This document shows positions 1 through 33,158 of a stretch of DNA of 35,938 nucleotides, one piece after another. The position numbers and the translations under genes are program-made. The stretch is from Clostridia bacterium (GTDB lineage Bacteria; Bacillota; Clostridia; UBA1381; UBA9506), in assembly GCA_017507525.1 (NCBI GenBank), contig JAFWAT010000030.1, positions 1-35,938 of the forward strand, given 5' to 3'. The notes under the pieces are model-generated. The model ran no database searches. It was given only the letters and a program-made list of their open reading frames with translations, and was not told the origin of the DNA. Position 1 is the stretch's first letter; each line of letters starts with the position of its first letter.

Positions 1-507
1 AATAAAATTCTTGCCATAGGTTCCTGCATCGTTTAAGGCCTCAAACGCCATGCCGCCGGTTAACGCACCGTCACCAATCACAGCAACAGCACGGCGGTTT
101 TCGCCAATTAAGTCAGAAGCTCGGGTCATGCCCAGCGCTGCAGAAATCGATGTTGACGAATGCCCCGTGTTATAGGCATCAAAAATGCTTTCGCTGCTTT
201 TAGGAAAGCCGCTTAACCCTCCAAACTGACGAAGCGTTTCAAACTGATTACGCCGCCCGGTTAAAAGCTTGTGTACATATGACTGGTGTCCTACGTCCCA
301 GATGATACTGTCGTTAGGTAGATCCAGTGTTTTAAATAATGCCAGTGTCAGTTCCACAACACCTAAGTTAGATGCCAAATGCCCCCCCGTTTTTGCAACA
401 GACTCAATCAAATATTTTCGAATCTCTGCCGCCAAAACAGAAAGCTCTGAAAAACTTAACCCTTTAACATCCTGCGGACTTTGAATGTTATCCAAGAATT
501 GGTACAT
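1..507 (-). CDS. dxs: 1-deoxy-D-xylulose-5-phosphate synthase, N-terminal part (cut by window edge)
   Basis: The first 169 codons of DXS, which condenses pyruvate and glyceraldehyde-3-phosphate in a thiamine-diphosphate-dependent reaction, the entry step of the MEP isoprenoid pathway. The visible part contains the family hallmarks: [16 protein letters not shown] near residue 40, [16 protein letters not shown] near 70, SGFPK and the [13 protein letters not shown] block, then the ThDP/Mg-binding start [18 protein letters not shown]. The ATG at 507 gives a normal DXS N terminus. The reading frame is still open at base 1, so about three quarters of the protein lies outside the window. Nothing in the visible part looks degenerate. 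It lies downstream of the TSUP pair on the same strand but appears to have its own promoter. Confidence 0.96.
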
Positions 508-577
508 ATTCTTCACTCTTTACACCGAAATTTAGCTTCTGTTTCAAAACTATTTGACAATAAACCGATACTAGAAT

Positions 578-606
578 ATCATATCATATTTTTAGCTTTT
601 GGTAAA
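578..606 (-). promoter_or_regulatory. Putative sigma-A promoter of dxs
   Basis: On the minus strand TTTACC (606-601) and TATGAT (583-578) are separated by 17 bases, which would give a 5' leader of about 65 bases before the dxs ATG. The -35 box is imperfect. The stretch 508-615 holds nothing else convincing apart from a weak GGAAA/TTTCC hairpin just after the TSUP stop codon. Confidence 0.45.
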
Positions 607-615
607 GAGGAAATG

Positions 616-993
616 CTATTTTTCCTTGGCTTTTTTTAATTTTTTGTCTTTTTTTAAGATTTCGTACACACCCATGGCAAACAAAAAGATACCAAACAAT
701 CGTCTGAGCAGCTTTGCCTCCATAAAACCTGCTAAAATCGCACCGCCTACCGCCCCGAACAAACCGGTTAAAATAATTAATACCGCAACTTTAAAATTAA
801 CAGAACGGTTCTTAATGTGTACCCACAGCGAGATCGCCGCAGTGGGAATAAAATACAAAAGATTAATCCCCTGTGCCTCATGCTGACCAATGTTTAAAAA
901 AATGGCCAGTGCAGGAATCAAAATTGTGCCGCCTCCAATTCCCATACCGCTGATGATGCCGGCACACAGTCCCGTTAAAACCGCAACAATCAT
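616..993 (-). CDS. Half-size TSUP (TauE/SafE) family membrane protein, second of pair
   Basis: A 125-residue, almost wholly hydrophobic protein of the TauE/SafE family (sulfite/organosulfonate exporter-like, COG0730). It has the repeat signature GLCAGIISGMGIGGGTILIP at its N terminus, three to four predicted membrane segments, and a Lys-rich cytoplasmic tail (KKDKKLKKAKEK). Canonical family members are about 250 residues with two homologous halves. This protein is one half, and its start codon overlaps the stop of the upstream half (ATGA at 990-993), so the two are translationally coupled. They probably assemble into one transporter, which is inference. The substrate cannot be read from the sequence. 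Confidence 0.85.
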   Translation of the reverse strand: MIVAVLTGLCAGIISGMGIGGGTILIPALAIFLNIGQHEAQGINLLYFIPTAAISLWVHIKNRSVNFKVAVLIILTGLFGAVGGAILAGFMEAKLLRRLFGIFLFAMGVYEILKKDKKLKKAKEK

Positions 994-1361
994 CCCATCA
1001 CCATCCTAACTGCAGCAATGAGCATAAAGGCGCCAAAAATTTTTCGAAGCACAGACCCCGAAAGCTTTTTTAACAATTTTGCACCGATAAAACCGCCTGC
1101 TACGCCACCTAAAGAAACCCAAAGTGCTACAGAATATGATAAATGGTTACGATAACCGTAAAAAAACAAGCTGACAATTGTAAAGCAAAGAATAATTAAA
1201 ATGGCGGTCGCATGGGCTTTGTGTTCGTCCTGATCCAGAAATTCTTCTAAAAACGGTACAATCACTGTACCGCCTCCGCTTCCGAACAGACCGTTTAAAA
1301 AGCCGGCTGCAAGACCGCCAATTACAGATATAACTTTTTTATTTTTAAAAAAACGTTTCAT
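990..1361 (-). CDS. Half-size TSUP (TauE/SafE) family membrane protein, first of pair
   Basis: A 123-residue membrane protein of the same family as its downstream neighbour. It begins with a basic MKRFFKNKK stretch followed by the repeat signature GLAAGFLNGLFGSGGGTVIVP, then three further hydrophobic segments. It ends in the 4-base overlap with the next gene. The GxGGG motif is present in both halves, consistent with an internal duplication expressed as two genes. It begins 82 bases after the smc stop codon and may be cotranscribed with it. No metal or substrate motif identifies what is exported. Confidence 0.85.
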   Translation of the reverse strand: MKRFFKNKKVISVIGGLAAGFLNGLFGSGGGTVIVPFLEEFLDQDEHKAHATAILIILCFTIVSLFFYGYRNHLSYSVALWVSLGGVAGGFIGAKLLKKLSGSVLRKIFGAFMLIAAVRMVMG

Positions 1362-1443
1362 ACCGGCTCCCTTCTATACCGATGCCTGTCGGCACATGGT
1401 ATTACAGAGCTAGTATTTGTAAAAAACCAACAAAATAAACCCT

Positions 1444-4400
1444 TTATGCTTCAATCTCATCCAAATTTAACTGCAAGAGCTTGGAAACGCCCTTTTCCTG
1501 CATGGTTACACCATAAATCACATCAGCGCTTTCCATAGTGCCTCGTCTATGTGTAACCAATATGAACTGCGTTTTGCGGCTAAAGCGTTTAATAAAATCA
1601 GCATAACGGTATACATTATTTTCATCCAACGCTGCTTCAATCTCGTCTAAGAAACAAAACGGCGTAGGCTTAATTCTAAGAATTGCAAACAGCAATGCAA
1701 TGGCAGACAACGCGCGCTCACCGCCTGACAAAAGAGACAGACTTTGCAGCTTTTTACCCGGCGGCTGAACGTGAATACTGATACCGCACTCTAAAATATT
1801 CTCTTCATCTTCTAAAATAAGGTCTGCCCTGCCGCCACCAAACAGCTCAGAAAATGTGGATTTAAAGTGTTGGTTGATTTTTTCAAACTCTTCCCGGAAC
1901 TGGCGCTTCATTACTGATTGCATTTCATCAATAATTTTAATCAAGTCCCGTTTTGCTTTGTGCAGGTCATCCCGCTGGTTGGTTAAAAACTCGTAACGCT
2001 CGCTCACAGACCGAAGCTCTTCAATGGCATCCACATTAACATTCCCCAGTTCGCGGATGCGGCCGCGCAATGAAGAAATCTTCTTAGAAATTTCACTGTC
2101 AGAACCCAAATCCTCTTCTTTAATCTTTTCTGCTTCTGAAAAGGTCATTTCGTACTCATCCCAAAGTCTAGAGATGGCAGCTTCAGACTCTGTTTCCAGC
2201 TTTTCAAGCTGCGCCTGCAGGCGATTGTATTCCGTTTTCAAATCATATGCCGTTTCTCGGGTAGACTTTGAATCGCCCTGTAAGGCCTTTAGCTGCTTTT
2301 CGCAATTCTGACGCTCCTGGGTAATATCGGCAATTTTCTTCTTAAACGCTAACATATCAGCAGAAAACGCTTCTTTTTGTTTTTCTTTCTCGGCAATTTC
2401 CCGCTTATGTTCTTCGTTTGTTTGTTCAATTTCCTTAATTTCGTCAGTTCTCAATGCTGTATGCGTCTCATTCTGGCTCATTTCCTGCCGAATTGCCTGA
2501 ATTCTTTCACCGCTTGCCGTAATATCCTGCCGGCAAACCGTTATTTGGAATCCTTTTTCTAAAAGCTGGTCATTAATTTTTTGCTTCCGGTTAGAAAAGC
2601 TTTCAAGAGTTTCCTCAAGGGCATTAACCTCAGCACGTTTTTCCTGAATATCAGCCTCTGCCTTAGAAAGTTCCTCTGCTGCTTCCTGCCGTCTTACATC
2701 TAAAGAAGCCGCTTCAGTCTCTGTTTCTGCCATATCATTTTGAATGGTAGCAAGGGCGCTTCGCAAAGATTCTAAAAGAAGGTCATGGTGTTCCCGGTCA
2801 CGAATCAAAAGTAGCAAAACTTCTTTATTCTCGGTATAAACCTCTTGGATTTTTGCCTGTTTCTCAGATAATTCTAAAATCCGGGCTTCCAGCGCTTCAC
2901 GCTCCCGCAAAAGTTGCTTTAAGCTGCTATCCAGCTGTTTTAGTGCCTTTTCAAGGTCTTTGATTTCCTGTTCGCGATCTAAAAGCTGGTTGCCCTTTTG
3001 CTGAGAACCACCGGCCATGGAGCCACCGGGATAAAACGCCTCACCTTCTAAGGTCACCAAGCGCAAGCTCTGTTTAAACTTTCTTGAAATAGCAATGGCA
3101 TGGTCAATTGTATCGATCACAGCCGTTTTTCCCAGCAGATTTTTGACTATGCCGCTATAGCGATCATCATAGCTCACAAGCTCAGACGCAATGCCAACAA
3201 AGCCCGGCTCCTGCCGAATCTTGCCGGTATCCATAAGGGAGCCGGATACTGCAGAAATAGGCATAAATGTCGCTCTGCCTGCGCCCAGTTGCTTTAAGCA
3301 GCTAATGACTTTCTTAGCATCTTCCTCTGTATCTACCACAATGTTTTGAAGGGCACCCCCAACAGCAACGCCAATTGCCGTGGCATAAGGCTTCTCCACG
3401 GAAATGAGTTTAGAAACCGGCCCATGAATGCCCACACGCGTCAGCATGCCGTTTTGGTGCTGCTTCATAATTTCTTTAACGCTTTTATAGTATCCTTCAA
3501 AGTTCTGCTCCATTTCCGAAAGCAGGTGGTGTCTGGTTTTCTTTTGATTAAAGGAATTCTGTAATTCCTGCTCCTTTTCCTGTTGTGCATTCAAACACTG
3601 CTGTAGCTCTTTTTCCTGTTCTAAAAGCTCATGAAGCTCCTTTTCCAGCTCTGCAACAAACTCTGATTTGCGTTGATGTTCCGCATCTAAGCTGCCGCCT
3701 TTTGTCTCCTGCTCACATAGCTCCTTTTCTCTTTGGGAATATACCTGCTTAAGTTCCTGCCGCCTAGTTTTTATATTCTGTTCTAACAGGGTTAAATTTG
3801 ATAATTTAATCTTGCTTTCAGACACTTTTTCAAAAGCCTCAGCAATGGCGTTTTGCAGCAGTTCAATTTGTTCTGTCTGCACACCGGTTCCCTCGTCAAA
3901 TTCTGACAGATTAGAAGCAAGCTCGTCCTTTTCTTTTTGTAGTAATGCTAAAGATGCCTGAAGACTCGAAAGCTTTTCTTCCTCGCGGTGCATGCTCTCT
4001 GTCAGTTCCTGCTTGGCAGCTGCCAGGCTTGCAACCTCGGCGAAAATGCGTTCTGTTAAGCGCAGATTGCCCTCAATGGTATTTTTTAATACCTCAATTT
4101 CCCGCACGCCAATCACGGCACCTTCTTCTGCAGATTTAAGTGCCGTTTCCTGCTGTGCCATTGCTTCTGCCAATTCTTCAAACCGCTGATAACAACGCTC
4201 CTGCTCACCTTCTGCCTGAGAAAGCTCCGCTTCTACCTTGGCAAGCTGCGCCCCTGCCGCCTCAATTTTCTCTTGTAAAACCACAGATTGTGTCTTACTT
4301 TTTTCCACAACACGCAAAACGCTGTTCACGTCAAAAATTTTAAGCTGGTCTTTTAAATTCAAATATTTTTTCGCCTTTTCCGCCTGCTGCGTCAGCGGAC

Positions 4401-5007
4401 CAATCTGCGCCTCCAGTTCACCGATAATATCCGCCACGCGGTCAAGGTTTTCATCTGTGTGCTTTAACTTGCGCTCCGCCTCTTCCTTGCGGTAACGGTA
4501 TTTGGAAATGCCTGCGGCTTCTTCAAAAATCTGGCGTCTGTCCTCTGATTTGTTAGACAGAATTTCATCAATTTTACCCTGACCAACCATAGAATATCCG
4601 TCACGCCCCAAACCGGTATCCATAAAGATTTCATGAATATCTTTCAATCGGCATGGGGTATCATTGATCAAATATTGGCTTTCACCGGAAGCAAAGACCT
4701 TTCTGGTGACTGAAACTTCGTCAAAATCTACATTAAAATGACGGTCATGATTATCTAATTTTAAAGTAACTTCAGCAAACCCAAGCCGCTTTCTGGTTTG
4801 GGTTCCGTTAAAGATAACATCTTCCATTTTGCTGCCGCGCAAGGTTTTTGCACTTTGCTCGCCAAGCACCCAGCGAACTGCATCAGAGATGTTACTCTTA
4901 CCGCTGCCGTTGGGTCCTACAATTGCCGTAATTCCATCACTGAACGAAAGTTCAATAGTGTCAGCAAAAGACTTAAATCCTTGCATTTTCAGTCCCTTCA
5001 AATGCAT
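1444..5007 (-). CDS. smc: Chromosome partition protein SMC
   Basis: A full-length 1187-residue SMC, the ATPase of the SMC-ScpAB condensin that organises and segregates the bacterial chromosome. Walker A GPNGSGKS is at residues 31-38. A coiled coil runs from about 165 to 500, the hinge is about 515-675 (with SVEKPYATAIGVAVGGALQN and the glycine-rich GGSMAGGS), and a second coil runs from about 680 to 1010. The head contains the signature LSGGERALSAIALLFAI and Walker B PFCFLDEIEAALDE. Most relatives read DEVDAALDE, and the change is conservative. The start at 5007 gives the usual MxLKxLxxQGFKSFAD N terminus, and its ribosome binding site lies inside the end of the upstream radical SAM gene. The order rnc - radical SAM - smc is common in Clostridia. 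Confidence 0.98.
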   Translation of the reverse strand: MHLKGLKMQGFKSFADTIELSFSDGITAIVGPNGSGKSNISDAVRWVLGEQSAKTLRGSKMEDVIFNGTQTRKRLGFAEVTLKLDNHDRHFNVDFDEVSVTRKVFASGESQYLINDTPCRLKDIHEIFMDTGLGRDGYSMVGQGKIDEILSNKSEDRRQIFEEAAGISKYRYRKEEAERKLKHTDENLDRVADIIGELEAQIGPLTQQAEKAKKYLNLKDQLKIFDVNSVLRVVEKSKTQSVVLQEKIEAAGAQLAKVEAELSQAEGEQERCYQRFEELAEAMAQQETALKSAEEGAVIGVREIEVLKNTIEGNLRLTERIFAEVASLAAAKQELTESMHREEEKLSSLQASLALLQKEKDELASNLSEFDEGTGVQTEQIELLQNAIAEAFEKVSESKIKLSNLTLLEQNIKTRRQELKQVYSQREKELCEQETKGGSLDAEHQRKSEFVAELEKELHELLEQEKELQQCLNAQQEKEQELQNSFNQKKTRHHLLSEMEQNFEGYYKSVKEIMKQHQNGMLTRVGIHGPVSKLISVEKPYATAIGVAVGGALQNIVVDTEEDAKKVISCLKQLGAGRATFMPISAVSGSLMDTGKIRQEPGFVGIASELVSYDDRYSGIVKNLLGKTAVIDTIDHAIAISRKFKQSLRLVTLEGEAFYPGGSMAGGSQQKGNQLLDREQEIKDLEKALKQLDSSLKQLLREREALEARILELSEKQAKIQEVYTENKEVLLLLIRDREHHDLLLESLRSALATIQNDMAETETEAASLDVRRQEAAEELSKAEADIQEKRAEVNALEETLESFSNRKQKINDQLLEKGFQITVCRQDITASGERIQAIRQEMSQNETHTALRTDEIKEIEQTNEEHKREIAEKEKQKEAFSADMLAFKKKIADITQERQNCEKQLKALQGDSKSTRETAYDLKTEYNRLQAQLEKLETESEAAISRLWDEYEMTFSEAEKIKEEDLGSDSEISKKISSLRGRIRELGNVNVDAIEELRSVSERYEFLTNQRDDLHKAKRDLIKIIDEMQSVMKRQFREEFEKINQHFKSTFSELFGGGRADLILEDEENILECGISIHVQPPGKKLQSLSLLSGGERALSAIALLFAILRIKPTPFCFLDEIEAALDENNVYRYADFIKRFSRKTQFILVTHRRGTMESADVIYGVTMQEKGVSKLLQLNLDEIEA

Positions 5008-5015
5008 GCCTCTAC

Positions 5016-6047
5016 CTATACCTTTCTGATACCACAGTCGGTATCATTGTTTTGCAAAACAGAAAATACACCCCAATCCATGTTGCTGTCTTGCTCAATT
5101 GTAATCTTTTTTAGAGAAAATTCTCTGGTGAGCCTATCAATGTTGCTCCGTTTTTGTCCCACCAAAATGGAAACGTAACGGGGATTTGACTGTATGGTAA
5201 CAGCCTGTCCGTAAAAAGGCGCAACCTGCTTTGCTAACCGATTATAGCAAACCTGCGACATAACCAGTTCACCAAACGCCGGGTGATACGGGCCGGCACA
5301 AATACTTTCCGGTTCCATATCAAGCAACCCCATACGAATCACATCAATGTTTTCACTTTGAAACATCTCATATAAAACGGCACATTGCTCCAGCGCTTCC
5401 TGCAAGCTGAGGGGAATATACCCCCCTGTCTCATAAAGTTCCTTAAGCTTGGTGCCACATAATACCAGCGTCGGATAAATCCGTACAGAGCGGGGGTGTA
5501 AGGAAATAAATGCTTCTGCCGTCATACAGGCTGTTTCAAAAGAATCCCCCGGCAGACCCAGCATCATCTGCAGACCCAGTTCAAAGCCGGCAGCTTGAAT
5601 CATCTTCGCCGCCGCCACAGTTTTATCTGCCGTGTGACCCCGATGGCAACCAAATAGTACAGCATCGTTCATAGACTGTGCTCCAAGCTCTACCGTGGTT
5701 ACCCCAAAGCGCTTGAGCCGCAAAAGTACCGCTTCGTTAATATAATCCGGTCGTGTTGAAAGCCGGATGCCATCAGCCCTGCCATCTAAAACAGCTTGAT
5801 ACGCCGGTTGCAAAAGCGCTTCCTGCTGTGGTGCCGGAATCCCCGTGAAGCTGCCGCCAAAAAAACCTATTTCTATGATATCGCCCGGTTCTTTTTCCCG
5901 GGTTCCGGCACGGATGATCGCTTCCGCTCGTTCCGGCGTCATTTCCTCTTTTTGTCCGGTTATGGCTTTTTGATTACAAAACAAACAATCCTGCGGGCAG
6001 CCCCAATGAGGGACAAAAATCGGGATTGTTTTATGCTTACCGGCCAT
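5016..6047 (-). CDS. Elp3-like radical SAM protein (rnc-smc linker gene)
   Basis: A 343-residue radical SAM protein with the cluster-binding motif CPQDCLFC (cysteines about residues 17, 21 and 24), the GFFGGSFTG motif near 64, STRPDYI near 98, and VELGAQSMNDAVL near 119. These are hallmarks of the Elp3/coproporphyrinogen-oxidase-like branch. It lacks the GNAT acetyltransferase domain of true Elp3, so a role in tRNA modification is not established. It starts 11 bases inside the 3' end of rnc, with TTAGGAG six bases before the ATG, and ends just before smc, so all three are likely coupled. This family is conserved between rnc and smc in many Clostridia without a proven reaction. Confidence 0.88.
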   Translation of the reverse strand: MAGKHKTIPIFVPHWGCPQDCLFCNQKAITGQKEEMTPERAEAIIRAGTREKEPGDIIEIGFFGGSFTGIPAPQQEALLQPAYQAVLDGRADGIRLSTRPDYINEAVLLRLKRFGVTTVELGAQSMNDAVLFGCHRGHTADKTVAAAKMIQAAGFELGLQMMLGLPGDSFETACMTAEAFISLHPRSVRIYPTLVLCGTKLKELYETGGYIPLSLQEALEQCAVLYEMFQSENIDVIRMGLLDMEPESICAGPYHPAFGELVMSQVCYNRLAKQVAPFYGQAVTIQSNPRYVSILVGQKRSNIDRLTREFSLKKITIEQDSNMDWGVFSVLQNNDTDCGIRKV

Positions 6048-7177: not shown

Positions 7178-8206
7178 TTATAAAGCTTCTTCTGCCTCTA
7201 TTACCTGTTCATTTTCTGCCTGAGACAGTAATGCTTCTTTAATCTTATCATTAACGCCAGCAGAAAGATATGTACTTGCAGCACAAACTGCATTGCAAAT
7301 CGCCTTAGCGTCAGAGCTGCCGTGTGCTTTAAAGACAACACCGTCAACACCTAAAAGGGGAACGCCACCATACTCAGAATAATCCATCTTTGCCTTAATG
7401 GTTTTAAGACCCGGCTTCAAAATCATAGCCGCAAGTTTTGTAATAAAGCTTTTATAGAAAACGCCCTTGAGCATGGTAAAGAGTGCTGATGCAGTCCCTT
7501 CAATCAGTTTAATCACAACATTTCCCGTAAAACCGTCACACACAATGACATCCGCAGCGCCGTAAGGCACATCACGGGGTTCGATGTTACCAATGAAATT
7601 CAGAGGTGCTTCTTTTAACAGTGCATAGGTTTCCTTGGTCAAGCTGTTGCCTTTTGCTTCTTCGGCACCGATGTTTAAAAGGGCAACACGGGGATTTTTA
7701 ATGCCCAAAACATTTTCTGCATAAATCGCACCCATATGTGCAAATTGCAACAAAAATTCAGGTCGGCAGTCGACATTTGCACCGGCATCTAAAATAACAC
7801 CCACGTCTTTTACTGACGGCATGGGGGTTGTAAGCGCCGGGCGCTTAATGCCCTTCATGCGCCCTAAAATGCGGAAAGCACCTGCCAGATATGCCCCGGT
7901 ATTACCTGCCGAGACCACCGCATCTGCCTCACCGTTTTTCACAAGCTGCAAAGCCACCACCAAGGAAGAATCTTTTTTCTTTCTGATCGCTTCAACAGGG
8001 GGCTCACCGGTTTCAATAACCTCACTTGCATGGCGAATGGTAATGCGACCTTCCGGAACGTTTTCCTGTGCCAAAAGCTCTTTAATTTTTGTTTCATCGC
8101 CAACCAAGATAATTTCATCAGAAATTTCAACTGATGCCTTGATGCATCCTTTCACAATTGCCTCCGGCGCATGATCACCGCCAAAAGCGTCCACAGCAAT
8201 CCTCAA
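7178..8206 (-). CDS. plsX: Phosphate acyltransferase PlsX
   Basis: A 342-residue peripheral membrane enzyme that converts acyl-ACP to acyl-phosphate, the acyl donor for PlsY in phospholipid synthesis. It starts with the family hallmark MRIAVDAFGGDHAPEAIVKG and carries the expected GNTGA (SAGNTGAYLAGA), LDAGANVDCRPE, and VCDGFTGNVVIKL segments. The start codon is TTG, with AGGTG about six bases before it. No ATG nearby gives the conserved N terminus. It lies between uvrC and acpP and is probably cotranscribed with acpP. Confidence 0.96.
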   Translation of the reverse strand: MRIAVDAFGGDHAPEAIVKGCIKASVEISDEIILVGDETKIKELLAQENVPEGRITIRHASEVIETGEPPVEAIRKKKDSSLVVALQLVKNGEADAVVSAGNTGAYLAGAFRILGRMKGIKRPALTTPMPSVKDVGVILDAGANVDCRPEFLLQFAHMGAIYAENVLGIKNPRVALLNIGAEEAKGNSLTKETYALLKEAPLNFIGNIEPRDVPYGAADVIVCDGFTGNVVIKLIEGTASALFTMLKGVFYKSFITKLAAMILKPGLKTIKAKMDYSEYGGVPLLGVDGVVFKAHGSSDAKAICNAVCAASTYLSAGVNDKIKEALLSQAENEQVIEAEEAL

Positions 8207-8265
8207 AACCTACACCTACCTATTTCACTCTAATAAAAAAAGTATATTATAAATTCGAAAAAAAT

Positions 8266-10119
8266 TCAAGATGTTTCATGAAAAAACTTATAAATATTTT
8301 CCGCAACACGTTCCGAAATCCCTGAAACAGCGTAAAGCTCTTCCTTTTTAGCCGCACGGATTGCGCTGAGGGTTTTAAAATGGCGAATCAGCTTTTTCCT
8401 TGTTTCAGCCCCCACACCCTCAATTTCCTCCAAGACAGATCCCGTCACGTGCTTAGTTCGCAGTTTTTTGTGATAAGAGATAGCAAATCGATGTACCTCC
8501 TCTTGTATGCCGGCCAAGAGACGAAAGGCTGCAGATGTTTTTAAAAATTCTATCTCTTCTCCATGCACCGTCACCACACCCCGGGTTCTGTGCCTGTCAT
8601 CTTTTACCATGCCAAACAAAGGAATATCCAAATCAAGCATCTTAAAAAGCTCAGAAATTGCGCTAACCTGTCCTTTGCCGCCATCTAGCAAAACGGCATC
8701 CGGCAGCGGCAGAAATTTTGGGTTTTTTAAGGTGCCGGCTTCTACCTCTTCTTCCTCCTCCTTCGCCCGACGAAAGCGACGATACAGCATTTCAGTCATA
8801 CTCTGATAGTCATCACCACCCAAGGCTTTTTCAATTTTAAAATGGCGATAAAAGCTTTTGGCGGGCTTACCGTCCCGAAAGACAATCATAGAACCCACCG
8901 CATCATGCCCTGCCGTGTGGGAAATATCATATGCCTCAAGACGTTTTGGAATAGCCGGAAGATTCAGCTTTTCTTTTAACTCTAAGATACTTTTCGGCAC
9001 GTTTTTGCTGCTGTCTTTTAAAAGATGGTCAACGGCATTTTGGCGAGCGTTTTTGCAGGCCATATCCGTTAATCGCTTCTTTTCGCCCCGAACCGGGCAT
9101 TTAACAACCGTCTTTCTTCCGCTTTTCTGTGATAGCCAACGAGAAATCAAGGCCTCATCCTCACAAGCATAGCACGTGTAAACAGTTTTGGGAATGTCCT
9201 CTGACTCAGCATAAAATTGCTTTAAAAATTCGCTGCATAACTGTGCATCATCAATCTCTCCGGTTTTATCCAAAACCGTGCTGTGTCGACCAATGAGTCT
9301 CCCCCGGCGGACAAACAAAACCACACCATAGGTTTTAATACCTTGCCGATAAAAGCCGATAATATCTTCATCCGCCTGCCTGTCTGAAATGATCTTCTGG
9401 CGCTCTTCAATTTTATAAATGGCGTTAATTTTGTCACGCAATAGGGCGGCTTTTTCAAACTCTAAGTTTTCAGAAGCCTTTTGCATATCCGCTTTGAGTT
9501 GCAACAAAATTTCGTCATGGTCGCCTTCTAAAAATTTGCAGGCATGTATAATCTGCCGGCGATACACCTCTTTTGGAACAGGACGAACGCAAGGCGCTGT
9601 GCACTGCTCAATATGGGCATTTAAGCACTCTCTCTTTTTTCCCATATCGACCGGCAACTTTAGGTTGCACGTTGGTAATTTGCACAGTTTTGAAACCATG
9701 TCAATAGCTTCTCTCACCGCCGCGCTGCTTGTATAGGGTCCGTAATATTTGTTTCCATCCTTCAGCATTTTTCTGGCAAGAAAAATCCGCGGATATTCGT
9801 CACGGATTGTGACTTTTATATAGGGGTAATGCTTATCGTCTTTTAAAAGAATATTATAATAGGGTTTATATTTTTTAATCAGATTGCATTCTAAAATCAA
9901 TGCTTCAAGCTCTGAGTCTGTGATAATATATTCAAAAGAGTCAATATTCGACACCATGGCACGCACCTTAGGCGTGTGATTTTCTACTGCTGTAAAGTAT
10001 TGCTTTATTCGGTTTTTTAAGACCTTTGCCTTGCCGACATAGATGACCTTTCCCGCTTCATTTTTCATCAAATAAACGCCGGGATCCTCAGGTAGGTTCA
10101 GTAAAAGTTCTTTTTCCAA
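8266..10119 (-). CDS. uvrC: UvrABC excinuclease subunit C
   Basis: The 617-residue dual-incision nuclease of nucleotide excision repair. The N-terminal GIY-YIG domain shows PGVYLMKNEAGKVIYVGKAK (residues about 13-32) for the 3' incision. A UvrB-binding UVR segment lies near 200-235 (LQLKADMQKASENLEFEKAALLRD). The RNase H-like 5'-incision domain includes YDISHTAGHDAVGSMIVF and LLDGGKGQV. Two helix-hairpin-helix motifs close the protein (EEIEGVGAETRKKLIRHF, AVSGISERVAENIY). The start codon is TTG, six bases after a strong AGGAGGT site. Upstream lies the HPr-like gene with its own terminator, so uvrC probably starts a new unit or receives readthrough. Confidence 0.97.
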   Translation of the reverse strand: MEKELLLNLPEDPGVYLMKNEAGKVIYVGKAKVLKNRIKQYFTAVENHTPKVRAMVSNIDSFEYIITDSELEALILECNLIKKYKPYYNILLKDDKHYPYIKVTIRDEYPRIFLARKMLKDGNKYYGPYTSSAAVREAIDMVSKLCKLPTCNLKLPVDMGKKRECLNAHIEQCTAPCVRPVPKEVYRRQIIHACKFLEGDHDEILLQLKADMQKASENLEFEKAALLRDKINAIYKIEERQKIISDRQADEDIIGFYRQGIKTYGVVLFVRRGRLIGRHSTVLDKTGEIDDAQLCSEFLKQFYAESEDIPKTVYTCYACEDEALISRWLSQKSGRKTVVKCPVRGEKKRLTDMACKNARQNAVDHLLKDSSKNVPKSILELKEKLNLPAIPKRLEAYDISHTAGHDAVGSMIVFRDGKPAKSFYRHFKIEKALGGDDYQSMTEMLYRRFRRAKEEEEEVEAGTLKNPKFLPLPDAVLLDGGKGQVSAISELFKMLDLDIPLFGMVKDDRHRTRGVVTVHGEEIEFLKTSAAFRLLAGIQEEVHRFAISYHKKLRTKHVTGSVLEEIEGVGAETRKKLIRHFKTLSAIRAAKKEELYAVSGISERVAENIYKFFHETS

Positions 10120-13717: not shown

Positions 13718-13733
13718 ATCGGTGTTATTTTTT
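13702..13733. terminator. Bidirectional terminator between the CNNM gene and rnpB
   Basis: A 14-bp near-perfect palindrome (arms ending CGATT / AATCG) flanked by A and T runs, so it works in both directions. It serves the plus-strand CNNM gene, whose stop codon lies within the stem, and the minus-strand RNase P RNA, whose 3' end abuts it. Confidence 0.88.
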
Positions 13734-13734
13734 G

Positions 13735-14076
13735 CATAAGCAGTTCTGTAAGCCGAGTTCTGTATTTGATGATCATCTATCTAGGCCGACTATTACTAGC
13801 CGGCTCAAGCCACCGCCAAGTATAAGCACGCCGGGCAAGCTTAGCTTACACGAGCCAATACGGTGTTGCTTCGGATGGGGTTTACAGAGCCGTGACGTCT
13901 CCGCCACGCTGGTGAGCTCTTACCTCACCTTTCCACCATCGCCGGAAAACCGGCAGTCTATTTCTGTTGCACTTTCCTTAGAGTCGCCTCCACCGGGAGT
14001 TACCCGGCACCCTGCCCTATGAAGCTCGGACTTTCCTCACGGGCTCTCGCCCCCGCGATCATCTGGACTACTTATC
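13735..14076 (-). ncRNA. rnpB: RNase P RNA, bacterial type A
   Basis: The catalytic RNA that removes 5' leaders from tRNA precursors. The ends pair as helix P1 (ATAAGTAGT near the 5' end, ACTGCTTAT at the 3' end). The conserved GAGGAAAGTCCGAGC, CAGGGTGCCGGGTAACTCCC and GGAAAGTGCAACAGAAA stretches follow in the expected order, as does the 3' ACAGAACTCGGCTTACAG. Length is about 342 bases. The overall plan is that of the common type A RNA, and is not the Bacillus type B. The 5' end is set by the TATACT box at 14087-14082, and the 3' end by the bidirectional terminator. Confidence 0.95.
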
Positions 14077-23312: not shown

Positions 23313-24098
23313 ATGAAACTGATTATTAAGAACAACTATGATGACATGTGTGCCTGGGCTGCTCAGCATATTGCTGATGCAATCAACGCCCACACTGAAA
23401 ACCGTCCTTTTGTTTTGGGTCTTCCTACCGGTTCTTCACCGCTAGGTGTCTATAAAAGACTGATTGAAATGAATAAAAGCGGTGCTGTCAGCTTTAAAAA
23501 TGTTGTAACCTTTAACATGGATGAATATGTAGGCCTGCCAAAAGAGCACGACCAAAGCTATTGGTATTTCATGCATGACAATTTCTTTAATCATATTGAT
23601 ATTCCAAGTGAAAATATCAACATTTTAAACGGCATGGCAGAAGACCTTGAAGCTGAATGCCAGCGTTATGAAGATAAAATTGCTTCCTACGGCGGCATTG
23701 ACCTCTTCTTAGGCGGCAGCGGCGTAGACGGTCATATTGCTTTTAACGAACCCTTTACTTCCCTTTCTTCCCGTACCGGCGTTCGTGCACTAACGCAGGA
23801 TACTTTGATTGTGAACTCACGTTTCTTTGATAACGACCCTGACAAAGTTCCCAAGACTGCACTTTCTGTGGGTGTAGGTACGGTGTGTGACTCAAAAGAG
23901 GTTTTACTCTTAATCAGCGGTCATAATAAAGCCCGTGCATTGCGCCATTGCGTTGAGGGCGGCGTTGACCATGCATGGACCATCAGTGCCCTCCAGCTTC
24001 ACCCCTGTGGTATTGTTGCCTGCGACGAGGATGCCTGCGGTGAGTTAAAGGTTGATACATATAAATACTTTAAGGAAATTTATAAAAACGAAAAATAA
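23313..24098 (+). CDS. nagB: Glucosamine-6-phosphate deaminase
   Basis: A 261-residue enzyme that converts glucosamine-6-phosphate to fructose-6-phosphate and ammonia, the last step of amino-sugar use. Hallmarks: [18 protein letters not shown] (phosphate loop), [11 protein letters not shown] with the catalytic Asp, and [14 protein letters not shown] with the catalytic His and Glu. Most relatives have GGIG at that last site, where this protein has GGSG. Gly-Val-Gly-Thr and GHNKA segments follow. Length is typical of the short Firmicutes form without an allosteric extension. It is a single-gene unit with promoter and terminator. nagA is not adjacent. Confidence 0.95.
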
Positions 24099-24276: not shown

Positions 24277-24305
24277 TTGACAAGAAAAAATTTTTTTGAT
24301 ATAAT
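24277..24305 (+). promoter_or_regulatory. Consensus sigma-A promoter of the aspS-gatC/gatA/gatB unit
   Basis: TTGACA (24277-24282), 17-base spacer, TATAAT (24300-24305): a perfect consensus promoter. Transcription would begin near 24311, exactly where the T-box stem I starts. Confidence 0.88.
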
Positions 24306-24310
24306 GTTTT

Positions 24311-24523
24311 GCGGAGACTCAGCTTTTTGGGAAAGTCTGTCAGGGAGAATGCGTCATGGACTGAAAGCGCATTTCAGATGAGTAGTAAGCTTGGGAACAC
24401 TCCGCCTACCATAACAGTTTCATATAAAAGCGGACACTTTTGTGTCAATGCGGGTGGCACCGCGGGTTAAATTTTATGTTTACTCGTCCCGGAAATATAT
24501 TTTTATATTTCCGGGGCTTTTAT
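24311..24523 (+). promoter_or_regulatory. T-box leader with probable Asn (AAC) specifier
   Basis: A tRNA-sensing transcription attenuator. Stem I closes by GCGGAG (24311-24316) with CTCCGC (24400-24405). On its 3' side GGGAACACT offers AAC (24396-24398) as the specifier, an Asn codon. The T-box sequence AATGCGGGTGGCACCGCGGG is at 24448-24467, and its TGGC (24455-24458) would pair with a GCCA tRNA end, matching discriminator G73 as in tRNA(Asn) and tRNA(Asp). The competing terminator has 12-bp arms at 24488-24499 and 24504-24515 plus a T run. Uncharged tRNA(Asn) would therefore turn on the downstream genes. The specifier reading is by position and context. GAA, ACA and GGA are the alternative frames, and no GAC is present there. 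Confidence 0.88.
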
Positions 24524-24548
24524 TTTTACCAAAACGGGAGGTATATGC

Positions 24549-26627
24549 ATGTATAGAACACTATTTTGCAACGACATACGTGACGAGCACATCGGCAAAA
24601 CCGTTCAGCTTGCCGGCTGGGTTGATGTTGTACGTGACCATGGTGGCGTTATCTTTATTGACCTTCGAGACTATACCGGTGTAACACAGGTGGTTGTTCA
24701 CGATGAATCTTTAGTGAAAGACATAAACCGTGAAACGGTTATCTCTGTCAGCGGTATCGTCAACAAGCGTGACCCTGAAACGGTTAATAATAAAATTGAA
24801 ACAGGCAGTGTTGAACTGGTGGCTGACACTCTGCAGATTCTGGGCAAAAGCCAGAACAAGCTTCCTTTTGATGTTCGTTCATCCAGAACCAGCAAAGATG
24901 AACTGCGCCTTAAATATCGCTATCTGGATCTTCGTAATCCTAAAAACCACGATAACCTTGTAAAGCGTTCGCAGATTATTCGCTTTATAAGAAATAAAAT
25001 GGAAGATAAAGGCTTTTTGGATATGCAGACCCCCATTCTGACTGCATCATCCCCGGAAGGTGCAAGAGACTTTTTGGTTCCCAGCCGTAAGCACCCCGGA
25101 AAGTTTTACGCTCTGCCCCAGGCACCTCAGCAGTTTAAACAGCTGTTAATGGTGTCCGGCTTTGACAGATATTTTCAGATTGCACCTTGCTTCCGTGATG
25201 AGGATGCCCGTGCTGACCGTTCTCCCGGTGAATTTTACCAGCTTGACTTTGAAATGGCATTTTCAACACAAGAAGAAGTTTTAGATGTGTGTGAAGACGT
25301 CATTTACGAAACCTTTAAAAATTTCTCAGACAAAAAAATTACACCGAAGCCCTTCCGCCGTATCACCTATGCTGATGCGATGATGACCTATGGCTCCGAT
25401 AAACCCGACCTTAGAAATCCGCTCTTAATCTGTGACTTAACAGACTTTTTTGCAGGGGTTGACTTCCCCGCCTTTAAAGGCAAACCCGTTCGTGGTATTG
25501 TGGCAAACTGCCAGGGCAAATCAAAGAAATTTTTTGAAGACTCACTTAAATTTGCAACCTCCCCGGAAGTTGGTCTTGGCGGACTTGGTTATATCACCTT
25601 AAAAGACGGCGCTTTTGCCGGCCCCATTGCCAAGTTTTTAACCGATGAAAAGAAAGCAGAAATCCTCAGCATAACCAGTGTTAAAGACGGCGAAACGCTG
25701 TTCTTTATTTGTGATGATAAGAAAAACGACACTGAGAAAAAAGCCGGTATGATTCGCACCTGGCTTGCTAAAAAAGAACAGCTTGACTTAATAAATGAAG
25801 ATGCTTTTGAGTTCTGCTTCGTTGTTGACTTCCCCATGTATGAAAATGACGAGGAAACCGGCGAAACCATTTTCACCCACAATCCGTTTTCAATGCCTCA
25901 GGGCGGAATGGAAGCACTGCTCACCAAAGAACCCACCGAAATTTTAGCATATCAGTATGACTTAGTCGGCAACGGCATTGAGCTGGCTTCCGGTGCTGTT
26001 CGTAACCACGATATCGACATTATGAAAAAAGCATTCGAAATTGCTGGCTATCCCGAAGAAGAGCTGAAAAAGCGCTTCAATGCTCTTTACACAGCCTTCC
26101 AGTATGGTGCACCGCCCCATGCCGGTATGGCTCCGGGTATCGACCGTATTGTTATGCTGCTCACTGATGAAGAAAAAATTATTGATGTTATTGCCTTCCC
26201 CTTAAACGGCAATGCACAGGATTTACTCTTGGGCGCTCCCAGCAACGTTACCAACCAACAGCTGGAAGACGTTCACCTCTTAGGCAGCACCAATGCGCTG
26301 GCAGGTCGTGTTGCCGGTCCTGCTGTCTCTGCAAAACAGTCGGCAGGCAAGCGTTCAACCTTCTCTAACGCGCAGCAGCTTAACCAAATCGCTCTGTCTG
26401 AGGAAGAAGAAAAGCTTGTGCAAAATATTTTCAGCGATATGGCTGAAAAAGAGAAAATTCTTGCAGAAACAAACACCGAAGGTGTTGAACCCATGGTGCA
26501 TGTTATGCCTATGACCAACGTTTTACGTGAAGATGTACGCAGTCAGCCCTTTACAAGGGAAAGTCTTTTAGAAGGCGCTCCCGAGCGCAGTGAAGATAGC
26601 TGGCAGGTACCCAGACTTGTAAAGTGA
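24549..26627 (+). CDS. aspS-gatC: Non-discriminating-type aspartyl-tRNA synthetase fused to GatC
   Basis: A 692-residue protein. Residues 1 to about 580 are a bacterial AspRS: an N-terminal OB-fold anticodon domain, class II motif 2 (CFRDEDARADRSPGEFYQLD), the bacterial GAD insertion at about 290-410, and motif 3 (GMAPGIDRIVMLL). His31 in RDHGGVIF is the residue associated with AspRS that also charge tRNA(Asn). Normal AspRS ends near 590. After an Ala/Gly/Ser-rich linker (about 580-604), residues 605-692 read as GatC: a helix starting LSEEEEKLVQNIF, then TEGVEPMVHVMP, TNVLREDVR and a final SWQVPRLVK. GGAGG is seven bases upstream of the ATG. The product would hand Asp-tRNA(Asn) directly to the amidotransferase encoded next. 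Confidence 0.92.
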   Translation: MYRTLFCNDIRDEHIGKTVQLAGWVDVVRDHGGVIFIDLRDYTGVTQVVVHDESLVKDINRETVISVSGIVNKRDPETVNNKIETGSVELVADTLQILGKSQNKLPFDVRSSRTSKDELRLKYRYLDLRNPKNHDNLVKRSQIIRFIRNKMEDKGFLDMQTPILTASSPEGARDFLVPSRKHPGKFYALPQAPQQFKQLLMVSGFDRYFQIAPCFRDEDARADRSPGEFYQLDFEMAFSTQEEVLDVCEDVIYETFKNFSDKKITPKPFRRITYADAMMTYGSDKPDLRNPLLICDLTDFFAGVDFPAFKGKPVRGIVANCQGKSKKFFEDSLKFATSPEVGLGGLGYITLKDGAFAGPIAKFLTDEKKAEILSITSVKDGETLFFICDDKKNDTEKKAGMIRTWLAKKEQLDLINEDAFEFCFVVDFPMYENDEETGETIFTHNPFSMPQGGMEALLTKEPTEILAYQYDLVGNGIELASGAVRNHDIDIMKKAFEIAGYPEEELKKRFNALYTAFQYGAPPHAGMAPGIDRIVMLLTDEEKIIDVIAFPLNGNAQDLLLGAPSNVTNQQLEDVHLLGSTNALAGRVAGPAVSAKQSAGKRSTFSNAQQLNQIALSEEEEKLVQNIFSDMAEKEKILAETNTEGVEPMVHVMPMTNVLREDVRSQPFTRESLLEGAPERSEDSWQVPRLVK

Positions 26628-26637
26628 GGTGTGTAAA

Positions 26638-27816
26638 ATGAATTACTATCGTACAAAATGTGACGGCGGAAACATCGCCGTTGATGATACCATTTTAGTA
26701 AAAGGCATGGAGGCTTCTGCCGGTTCAAAAATCTTAGAGGGGTTTAAACCTCTGTTTAGTGCCGAAGTGGCTACCCGCCTTGAAAGCAAAGGCTATAACA
26801 TTGCAGGAAAAACCCATGTAGGTGAATTTGGGCTTGACCTTTTGGGTGAGTTCTCTCACTACTCGGAAAAACAAGATGCTTTAAAAGGTGCTGCAGCAGA
26901 GCTCGTAGCACAAGGCACTGTCAAGGCCGCATTGGGTGTTGATATGAATGGCAGCACAAGACGTGCAGCAGCTATTTCCGGTGTAGACTTTTTAAAACCC
27001 ACCTACGGAACCGTTTCCCGTTACGGTGTCATCTCCTGCGCCGCCTCCGGCGAGCAAATCGGCGTCTATGCACCTAGCGCATTGGGGATAAAAGAAATCA
27101 TGGATGTTATCGCAGGGCATGATGATAAAGACGGCACAAGCCTCAGAAACGAATCCTATGATTACACGATTTCCGATGCTGCCGGCAAAAAGGTTTGTAT
27201 TGTAAAAGAGCTTTTAGAGAAAGCCGACGATGAAACAAAAGCACGGCTTAATGCCTTTACTGACGGTCTTCGTGCAAAGGGCGTAATGGTAGAAGAAATC
27301 TCCTTTGAAATTTTTGAAACTGCAAATACCGCATGGCAGATTTTAATGACCGCAGAAACCTGTAACAACATTTCCCGCTATGATGGCGTTAAATTCGGTC
27401 ATCGTGCAACGGAATACAAGAACATTGACGAACTGTACGTCAACTCCAGAACAGAGGGCTTTAACTTTTTAACAAAGGCAGTCATTCTCTATGGTTCTGA
27501 TGTGCTTTCCAAAAACCGCTATGCAGACTGCTATGACAAGTCCCTGAAGGTGCGCCGTGTGCTTTGCGAGAAATTTGAGAAGCTGATGGAAAATTATGAT
27601 GCCATCCTGACGCCGGCATGCAGTAAAACCGCTTATAATCGCTTTGATATTCATGAAGCCTTCGGCAAAGTCTTTGAAGAGTCTGTATTTACAGCTCTGG
27701 CAAACCTCATTGGCATTCCGGCTCTGGTTTCCGGCGGCGTTCAGCTGATGGGTAAACACTTTAGCGAAAGCATGCTGCTTAGTCTTGCAGACTGTGTGGA
27801 AAGGAAGGGTGAATGA
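26638..27816 (+). CDS. gatA: Short GatA-like protein lacking the catalytic Lys and cis-Ser
   Basis: GatA is the amidase subunit that releases ammonia from glutamine for Asp-tRNA(Asn)/Glu-tRNA(Gln) amidation, using a Lys / cis-Ser / Ser triad. This 392-residue protein (family about 485) lacks roughly the first 70 residues. Alignment by eye puts Asp16 (IAVDDTILVKG) where the family has IAIKD. The Gly/Ser-rich GGSSGGSAAA motif is gone and reads DALKGAAAELVA, with Lys83 at the cis-Ser position. The nucleophile Ser106 remains (VDMNGSTRR). The rest is well conserved (LKPTYGTVSRYGV, SRYDGVKFGHR, YDAILTPACSKTAY). The frame is intact, so it is probably an expressed non-catalytic subunit. Start ATG 26638 has GAGG eight bases upstream; the first in-frame codon, GTG 26629, is less likely. 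Confidence 0.9.
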   Translation: MNYYRTKCDGGNIAVDDTILVKGMEASAGSKILEGFKPLFSAEVATRLESKGYNIAGKTHVGEFGLDLLGEFSHYSEKQDALKGAAAELVAQGTVKAALGVDMNGSTRRAAAISGVDFLKPTYGTVSRYGVISCAASGEQIGVYAPSALGIKEIMDVIAGHDDKDGTSLRNESYDYTISDAAGKKVCIVKELLEKADDETKARLNAFTDGLRAKGVMVEEISFEIFETANTAWQILMTAETCNNISRYDGVKFGHRATEYKNIDELYVNSRTEGFNFLTKAVILYGSDVLSKNRYADCYDKSLKVRRVLCEKFEKLMENYDAILTPACSKTAYNRFDIHEAFGKVFEESVFTALANLIGIPALVSGGVQLMGKHFSESMLLSLADCVERKGE

Positions 27817-27817
27817 A

Positions 27818-29236
27818 ATGAATTATGAACTGGTGATTGGTCTTGAGACCCACGTTGAACTCAGCACCGAATCAAAAATTTTCTGTTCCTGCGGCGGTCA
27901 TTCTGCTGCAAATGAACCCAACGACTGTGTGTGCCCTGCCTGCAGCGGCATGCCCGGTATGCTCCCGGTGATGAACAAGCGTGTTGTAGAGCTTGCCGTC
28001 ACTGCTGGTCTTATGCTAAACTGTGATATTAACAAATATACCACCTTTGATAAAAAGAATTACTATTACCCTGACCTGCCCTGCGCATACCAGATTACGC
28101 AGCTGAATCACCCCATCTGCACAAACGGCTGTGTTACCTTAAAAACCTCTGCCGGCAGCCGTGATATTCGCATTAAGCAAATTCACATGGAAGAAGATGC
28201 AGGCAAGCTGGTTCACGGGGGAAAATATTCCTATGTTGACTTTAACCGCACCAGCGTGCCCCTGATTGAGATTGTTACCCAACCGGACTTTAGAAGTGCT
28301 GAAGAAGTTGTTACGTACTTAAACAAGCTGAAATCCATGTTCCGTTCCGGCGGCATTTCAGAATGTGAAGAGGGTGCTATGCGTTGCGACGTTAACATTT
28401 CCGTTCGCCCTGAAGGCAGCGAAGCCTTTGGTGTTCGTACTGAAATTAAAAATATGAGCTCCTTTGAAGCCATTGAACGGGCAATTCACTACGAAGCACA
28501 GCGTCACATGGATGCGCTGGAATTTGAAACCGAAGAACTGGTTCAGGAAACCAGACGGTTTGATGATGCAAGCGGTAAAACCATGGCAATGCGTAACAAA
28601 GAAACCGAGTCAGATTATCGCTACTTCCCCGATGCAAACTTAATGCCTATCATCATTGACGATGCTTGGCTTGATGAAATTAAGGCAAAGAAGCCTGCTG
28701 CTGTGGATGAAAAAGCTGAAGATTACCGCGCTGCGGGCATTTCAGAAAAAGAAATTGACATGCTGATTTCAAATCACAAGGTCAGCAAGCTGTTAGATGA
28801 TATTGTGGCAATGGGTTGCAAAGCAAAAGATGCTGCAGCATGGATTTTAACTGACTGCGCCGGTATCTTGCGCAAAGACGGAAAAACCTTAAACGATTTG
28901 ACCATAACAGCCGAAAAACTGTTTGCTGTTACCAGCATGGTTGATCGGGGAGATATTAACCGCAACGCAGGTAAAAAGATTCTGATTGCCATCATCGAAG
29001 ATGATGTTGACCCTGTTGCATACTGCAAGGAAAAGGGGCTTGACAAGAAGTTTGATGCCTCTGCTGTTGAGGCTGTGATTGAAAAAGTCATTGCTGAAAA
29101 CACTCAGTCCGTTCAGGACTATAAAAACGGTAAGGTCAAAGCCATCCAGGCATTGTTCGGTGCTTGTATGAAAGAGCTGAAAGGTGCAGGCGACCCCGCT
29201 GTGATTAAAACAGTACTGGAAGAAAAGTTAAAGTAA
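27818..29236 (+). CDS. gatB: Aspartyl/glutamyl-tRNA(Asn/Gln) amidotransferase subunit B
   Basis: A 472-residue full-length GatB, which phosphorylates the misacylated tRNA side chain and transfers ammonia to it. Active-site residues are kept: Glu10 and His12 in VIGLETHVEL, and Glu125 and Glu126 in QIHMEEDAGKL. Zinc-type cysteines are present (C23, C25, C39, C42). The cradle is followed by the YqeY-like helical tail from about residue 325, which binds the tRNA elbow. The ATG at 27818 is one base after the gatA stop. Its integrity contrasts with the degenerate GatA-like neighbour and suggests that the amidation site, fed with ammonia from some source, is still used. Confidence 0.96.
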   Translation: MNYELVIGLETHVELSTESKIFCSCGGHSAANEPNDCVCPACSGMPGMLPVMNKRVVELAVTAGLMLNCDINKYTTFDKKNYYYPDLPCAYQITQLNHPICTNGCVTLKTSAGSRDIRIKQIHMEEDAGKLVHGGKYSYVDFNRTSVPLIEIVTQPDFRSAEEVVTYLNKLKSMFRSGGISECEEGAMRCDVNISVRPEGSEAFGVRTEIKNMSSFEAIERAIHYEAQRHMDALEFETEELVQETRRFDDASGKTMAMRNKETESDYRYFPDANLMPIIIDDAWLDEIKAKKPAAVDEKAEDYRAAGISEKEIDMLISNHKVSKLLDDIVAMGCKAKDAAAWILTDCAGILRKDGKTLNDLTITAEKLFAVTSMVDRGDINRNAGKKILIAIIEDDVDPVAYCKEKGLDKKFDASAVEAVIEKVIAENTQSVQDYKNGKVKAIQALFGACMKELKGAGDPAVIKTVLEEKLK

Positions 29237-32869: not shown

Positions 32870-32934
32870 AATGTTATTTACAACACCGGCGCAAATAACA
32901 CCAAAGCAGGTCTTGTGACTTACATCTTATAGAC

Positions 32935-33112
32935 ATAGGCAGTCAATATTTTTGTGCCTTGCCTTCTCGGTTTCCCAATGACCGGTTTTCACCGACAGAC
33001 ACAAAAACATTCGATGCATACACCGACAGTTTCTCGCAGGGGATTCTCACCCCATTCCCTTTTCATCCGTTACACCTTGGCTAATGCCCTTTGCAGTATA
33101 ACCGACACTTTG
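32935..33112 (-). promoter_or_regulatory. Cobalamin riboswitch
   Basis: On the minus strand the conserved core elements occur in order: GGTGTAACGGATGAAAAGGGAA, GGTGAGAATCCCCTGCGAG, AAACTGTCGGTG, and the B12 box region GGTCATTGGGAAACCGAGAAGGC near 32958-32980. It sits about 40 bases after a strong promoter and 190 bases before the ECF T-component gene. Family knowledge says such RNAs bind a cobalamin and lower expression of uptake or synthesis genes. The exact ligand form cannot be read by eye. Confidence 0.86.
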
Positions 33113-33158
33113 TGTGAAAAATTAATTATATTGGTTATATGTTCATATTTACCGTTTC

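Follow-up and report, generated by a model that had tools for sequence, protein, structure and literature searches.

A GatA homologue without a glutaminase site in a conserved clostridial operon, probably part of a dedicated Asp-tRNA(Asn) amidotransferase

Introduction

In bacterial tRNA-dependent amidation, the hydrolysis of glutamine by GatA is regarded as the first half of the process and as what defines it. The window analysed here, a stretch of 35,938 nucleotides from a Clostridia bacterium, contains a gene, gatA*, whose product resembles GatA but, according to a sequence-only reading, lacks the catalytic Lys and cis-Ser of the family. What does such a protein do beside GatB, and where would the ammonia come from? 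Neither a glutaminase-dead GatA nor an operon joining AspRS–GatC to a dead GatA turned up in a literature search restricted to open-licence papers.

Results

The operon and its proteins

The gene order of the operon (AspRS–GatC fusion, gatA*, gatB) is constant across all sufficiently long loci, and its features are collected in Table 1. The sequence-only reading, which had rightly called the open reading frame of gatA* GatA-like, missed both the fusion and the T-box leader, which are the biological context of the gene. GatA* matches TIGR00132 (E 4e-81; 273 bits, not reaching the curated cut-off of 481) and PF01425 (E 3e-55). Its AlphaFold model has the GatA fold with a mean pLDDT of 83, and the best structural match of this amidase-signature fold is Thermotoga GatA (2gi3, Z 42.6), with S. 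aureus GatA (2df4_A) at Z 42.0. The upstream gene exceeds the cut-offs for AspRS (PRK00476, 742 bits against 443) and GatC (TIGR00135, 49.2 against 47.1), while the AspRS–GatC fusion model PRK12820 gives 468 bits and does not reach its cut-off of 1379. GatB scores 569 bits with PRK05477 (cut-off 338).

Table 1. Positions of the features discussed, in the window and in related loci
Feature	Location	Positions	Strand	Remarks
RNase P RNA, class A	window	13733-14074	-	Rfam
nagB (glucosamine-6-phosphate deaminase, releases ammonia)	window	23313-24098	+	immediately before the operon
Sigma-70 promoter, TTGACA-17-TATAAT	window	24277-24305	+	12/12 consensus; stem I follows after about 6 bases
T-box stem I with specifier loop	window	24311-24405	+	covarying stem, 24 leaders
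Specifier codon AAC (Asn)	window	24396-24398	+	unpaired 3' side of specifier loop, consensus fold
T-box antiterminator sequence GGGTGGCACCGCG	window	24452-24464	+	UGGC bulge
Intrinsic terminator of T-box leader	window	about 24486-24527	+	14-bp stem, then T-rich tail
aspS2-gatC (AspRS fused to GatC)	window	24549-26627	+	PRK00476, TIGR00135, PF02686 matches
GatC part of the fusion	window	about 26358-26624	+	TIGR00135
Alternative GTG start of gatA*	window	26629
gatA*	window	26638-27816	+	392 aa; GatA-fold pseudo-glutaminase; second gene of operon
gatB (kinase/transamidase subunit)	window	27815-29236	+	PRK05477; start overlaps gatA* stop
Cobalamin riboswitch	window	32888-33127	-	Rfam
Asparaginase-family gene	L183	7461-8501
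Asparaginase-family gene	L221	2417-3520	-
Asparaginase-family gene	L222	5413-6480
Asparaginase-family gene	L224	979-2100	-	deep-branching, unfused operon
Asparaginase-family gene	L033, L040, L043, L044, L049, L055, L059, L064, L069, L079, L082			further loci with this neighbour
AlaX-like (alanyl-tRNA editing) gene	L221	1258-2460	-	after operon or asparaginase gene, among several loci
AlaX-like gene	L222	6477-7652		as above
AlaX-like gene	L212	6013-7167		as above
Other AspRS–GatC fusion with intact GatA and GatB	L176 (G033:C57)	1-5980		fusion of 698 aa, 40% identical
Stand-alone AspRS	L178 (G053)	98-2023	-	57% identical to fusion AspRS, without GatC; two other AspRS genes beside it
Canonical-type gatB	L224 (G391)	7475-8977	-	just upstream of unfused T-box/gatA* operon, in tandem
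tRNA-Asn of a GatA* genome	L206 (G195)	119-194		G1-C72 instead of U1-A72

Loss of the glutaminase site

Residues of 56 GatA* relatives were compared with those of S. aureus GatA, which gives the numbering, and of 35 canonical GatA proteins encoded in the same genomes or in related ones. The catalytic Lys79, present in all 34 canonical proteins that have a letter at this position, is Asp16 in the window protein, just as the sequence-only reading had it, and is replaced by Asp in 54 relatives and by Glu in two. The cis-Ser154 of the GGSSGGS motif corresponds to Leu82, in an ungapped block after the deletion, and is Leu in 56/56. The earlier placement of Lys83 at the cis-Ser has to be corrected, as Lys83 aligns with Ser155; since it is moreover missing from 14 of the 56 relatives (Lys in only 42), the salt bridge with Asp16 that had been imagined there finds no support as a general feature. 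Ser106 aligns with the nucleophile Ser178 and is indeed the sole catalytic residue left in the window protein, as claimed, but this does not extend to the relatives, of which 40 have Ala, three Thr, one Phe and only 12, the window protein among them, Ser.

The residues that bind glutamine, which we take to be Arg358 and Asp425 in S. aureus numbering, have become Val in 54/56 and Ser in 51/56 relatives, respectively, including the window protein in both cases. The binding role itself was assigned to their equivalents, in yeast numbering, in yeast GatFAB (PMC4027206). The N-terminus is truncated as had been noted, although by somewhat less than the 70 or so residues proposed: residue 11 lies opposite S. 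aureus residue 74 in the alignment, which leaves about 63 residues absent. Judged by these alignments, GatA* is a GatA homologue without a glutaminase site, and its complex probably does not obtain ammonia from glutamine via known GatA chemistry.

The transamidase partner presents the opposite picture. The kinase residues checked in GatB, E10, H12, E14, K79, E124, E125 and E150, are invariant in 60/60 of the GatB proteins linked to GatA*. The mechanistic argument made below rests chiefly on this pairing of an intact GatB with a dead GatA.

Distribution and maintenance of GatA*

Relatives of GatA* were found in 55 named loci, mostly gut clostridial metagenome-assembled genomes (MAGs), in 11 of 20 genomes of the same family and in 9 of 393 sampled clostridial genomes. 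A plasmid search for relatives gave only matches below 60% identity; the five matches listed share about 34%, a value typical of ordinary GatA. More than 60 gut clostridial genomes have the frame open, and pairwise dN/dS is about 0.03–0.12, far below 1; as the relatives come from independent MAGs, a sequencing error is excluded. Roughly 100 columns are invariant across 50 relatives. In the tree, 58 GatA* proteins form one clade, separate from 37 canonical GatA proteins, and the exact point of origin of this clade is unsure because its branch is long. The sequence-only reading had inferred a maintained non-catalytic protein from the open frame and the good conservation of the remainder, and had suggested dN/dS in relatives as a check; the strong purifying selection, the clade-wide loss of catalytic and glutamine-binding residues, the invariant operon and the single clade now support that inference, and we describe GatA* as a maintained pseudo-glutaminase.

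In two divergent members (L189/L224 and L190/L223), aspS2 and gatC are separate genes while the catalytic Lys and cis-Ser are already gone, and the loss of the glutaminase therefore seems older than the fusion of AspRS with GatC. Conversely, genome G033, which has a GatA* operon and one more canonical GatA, encodes another AspRS–GatC fusion with an intact GatA and GatB, so that the fusion alone does not bring glutaminase loss.

An asparagine T-box leader

The leader contains a T-box sequence, a specifier loop and a terminator. The match to the Rfam T-box model RF00230 (E 1.8e-9, 47.7 bits) does not reach the gathering score of 93, and the stem I that the model predicts lies in part before the promoter. 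In an alignment of 24 leaders, 13 of the 24 pairs of stem I show double changes; for example, pair 8-97 is G-C in 19 leaders and A-U in five. The Asn codon AAC is present in 47/47 readable leaders, while the base before it varies (45 G, 1 C, 1 T) and the base after it is A or G. The UGGN bulge reads UGGC in 49/49 leaders and matches G73 of the tRNA-Asn genes. In the window genome, tRNA-Asn carries G73 and the U1-A72 pair, which ordinary GatCAB reportedly recognises. An Asp codon is not encoded in the specifier. A Glu codon overlaps the Asn codon (GAAC) in 45/47 leaders, and two members lack GAA; tRNA-Glu in two GatA* species (L204, L206) has A73, which does not match UGGC. With AAC fixed between varying flanks and UGGC matching G73, the operon should, on sequence grounds and in the absence of binding data, answer to uncharged tRNA-Asn.

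The canonical AspRS differs from the fusion AspRS by a Leu/His difference at the position of E. coli Leu30, where its Leu looks "discriminating". We dropped this difference as proof of tRNA specificity, since AsnRS is missing as well from relatives whose only AspRS is the Leu form. Genomes of the same family that have no GatA* operon get by with canonical GatCAB and AspRS alone; their canonical AspRS must therefore charge tRNA-Asn, and the Leu is not decisive.

Routes to Asn-tRNA

The window genome is a 1.36-Mb MAG with an estimated completeness of 96%, in which AsnRS, GlnRS, AsnA and AsnB were not detectable. A weak match to asparagine synthase turned out to be GuaA, leaving no asparagine synthase. 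A second, ordinary GatA with GatC and GatB is encoded on another contig, and the genome also has an ordinary AspRS, so that the operon is not its only route.

The situation is different in ten GatA* genomes with a GlnRS sequence (G002, G003, G004, G026, G030, G032, G041, G044, G045 and G050), in whose MAGs neither AsnRS nor canonical GatA or GatB was detected. In these, the GatA* complex appears to be the only visible route to Asn-tRNA, as far as MAGs can tell. All genomes being MAGs, such absences are partly incompleteness; the absence of a single gene is weak evidence, and the pattern across several genera is stronger. G045 belongs to the same species as G176, which is 93% complete. The class II synthetase of 449 aa beside the operon in G004, AsnRS-like in a Pfam search, is actually an archaeal-type AspRS, and those of G002 and G003 look alike by sequence.

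Three further genomes (G047, G048 and G054) have both AsnRS and GlnRS and keep the operon as their only GatCAB, where it is not needed for charging. By analogy with Bdellovibrio, for which tRNA-dependent asparagine synthesis has been shown (PMC4206432), they may use the complex for this purpose.

Discussion

We consider it likely, although there is no biochemistry, that the complex is a dedicated Asp-tRNA(Asn) amidotransferase, and that the operon makes Asn-tRNA(Asn) with ammonia not made by GatA. What carries this proposal can be read from the genes themselves: the lost glutaminase site, the intact GatB, the fixed operon, the asparagine T-box, the purifying selection and, in some genomes, the apparent lack of any other visible route. 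When uncharged tRNA-Asn accumulates, it would bind the leader through the AAC specifier and so induce the operon. The second AspRS, which is joined to GatC, would then charge tRNA-Asn with Asp, an activity on this tRNA that is only inferred, and GatB would phosphorylate the Asp side chain and amidate it. GatA*, a pseudo-glutaminase, would have a structural part, holding GatB and GatC without hydrolysing glutamine; of the roles considered, this one within an Asp-tRNA(Asn) amidotransferase is the best supported. GatA* would also pass on ammonia from another source, either free ammonium or locally made, and both this transport and the source are inferences.

By analogy, free ammonium may be the simplest source: in yeast GatFAB, damage to the scaffold of the glutaminase site decreased transamidation with glutamine and increased transamidation with NH4Cl (PMC4027206). 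NagB, encoded next to the operon in the window, was rejected as a general ammonia partner, as it is present in none of 55 related loci.

A more specific proposal, possible but tentative, is that an asparaginase-family partner encoded beside the operon supplies the ammonia, as archaeal GatD does for GatE. This would refine the best explanation and might apply to some of the lineage only. No gene is found next to the operon more often than one of the asparaginase family, which in most cases follows gatB immediately and in the same orientation. It occurs in about 18 of some 57 loci, roughly a third, including the deep-branching L224; the count includes one gene at the opposite flank (L212), one in reverse orientation (L053) and a fragment (L063). 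An apparent fusion of GatB with asparaginase in L044 was caused by a run of N and is not real. The gene matches type I asparaginase (E 4e-31) and GatD (E 2e-25), the GatD models giving 89 of 310 bits, below the cut-off. In cells free of AsnRS, where free Asn cannot be loaded onto tRNA, its hydrolysis would yield Asp and NH3, both substrates of the complex. However, within the neighbourhood of the operon, such a gene is missing from the window and from most loci. While the Thr and Thr-Asp motifs of the protein are invariant, its catalytic Lys is, by alignment, apparently an invariant Arg, which makes its activity uncertain. The wider picture of a bacterial GatD-like system, in which the dead GatA* docks and tunnels and either this partner or free ammonium replaces glutamine for tRNA-dependent Asn synthesis under the control of tRNA-Asn, likewise remains a conjecture.

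It is unlikely that GatA* carries a re-invented amidase site and still draws ammonia from glutamine or another amide. Canonical GatA has 131 invariant columns, of which GatA* retains 58; 36 are variable and 37 have switched to another conserved residue, with Cys242, Cys298, Trp233, Lys292 and Arg294 among the new invariant residues; the pocket is thus not freely drifting and may be kept for something. The Ser-Ser-Lys set and the glutamine-binding Arg and Asp are gone, however, and no Cys-His-Glu arrangement is evident; residues 269-295, highly conserved, are predicted only at low confidence. The idea of an "acidic ammonium funnel" was dropped, as the conserved switches bring no net negative change.

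Still harder to sustain is a regulatory or mistranslating device without amidation, which would make Asp-tRNA(Asn) when Asn-tRNA is scarce. The dead glutaminase and the canonical GatCAB of many GatA* genomes would agree with it, but not the invariant kinase residues of GatB, nor the ten genomes lacking AsnRS in which the operon is the only visible GatCAB. That GatA* is merely a decaying paralogue, which its lost catalytic residues and its dN/dS, above that of gatB and mostly above that of aspS2-gatC, might suggest, is already contradicted by its low dN/dS, invariant columns, intact frame and single clade.

If the dedicated amidotransferase is real, a conserved and regulated branch has dispensed with the glutaminase half, and the kinase/transamidase half can use another source of ammonia. 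Such a branch would provide a naturally uncoupled enzyme with which the entry of ammonia into the GatA–GatB tunnel could be tested, and the supply of Asn-tRNA would be glutamine-independent in many gut clostridia. Models that score GatA as present or absent would misread these genomes.

The proposed complex shares with the canonical GatCAB of S. aureus, A. aeolicus and T. maritima the GatA and GatB folds, an intact GatB site and a GatC domain, whereas it lacks the glutaminase site and the N-terminal residues of GatA and carries GatC on AspRS. The Asn-transamidosomes of Thermus thermophilus (3kfu) and Pseudomonas aeruginosa (4wj3) likewise bring AspRS, GatCAB and tRNA-Asn together, but their AspRS is a separate protein and their GatA an active glutaminase. 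Archaeal GatDE, which is specific for Glu-tRNA(Gln), resembles it in having a GatB-like transamidase without GatA and, possibly, in the asparaginase-like partner; in contrast, a GatA-fold subunit is kept here, and the neighbouring asparaginase gene lacks the N-terminal region of GatD. Vertebrate carbamoyl phosphate synthetase I is a glutamine amidotransferase that works with free ammonia and whose retained glutaminase domain is a dead scaffold, an analogy only, as fold and pathway are unrelated. The closest regulatory parallel is the T-box-controlled transamidation operon of C. acetobutylicum, with an extra AspRS, a second GatCAB and a two-codon Asn/Glu T-box (PMC4052509, PMC4206432). The GatA* operon has in common with it the overlapping GAA/AAC specifier codons, in the 45 leaders noted above, as well as the extra AspRS and second GatCAB; it differs in the two members that lose GAA and in the mismatch of UGGC with A73 of tRNA-Glu. 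GatA2 of C. acetobutylicum is presumably full-length with a catalytic triad, whereas in the GatA* operon the GatA active site is lost and, in most members, AspRS and GatC are fused.
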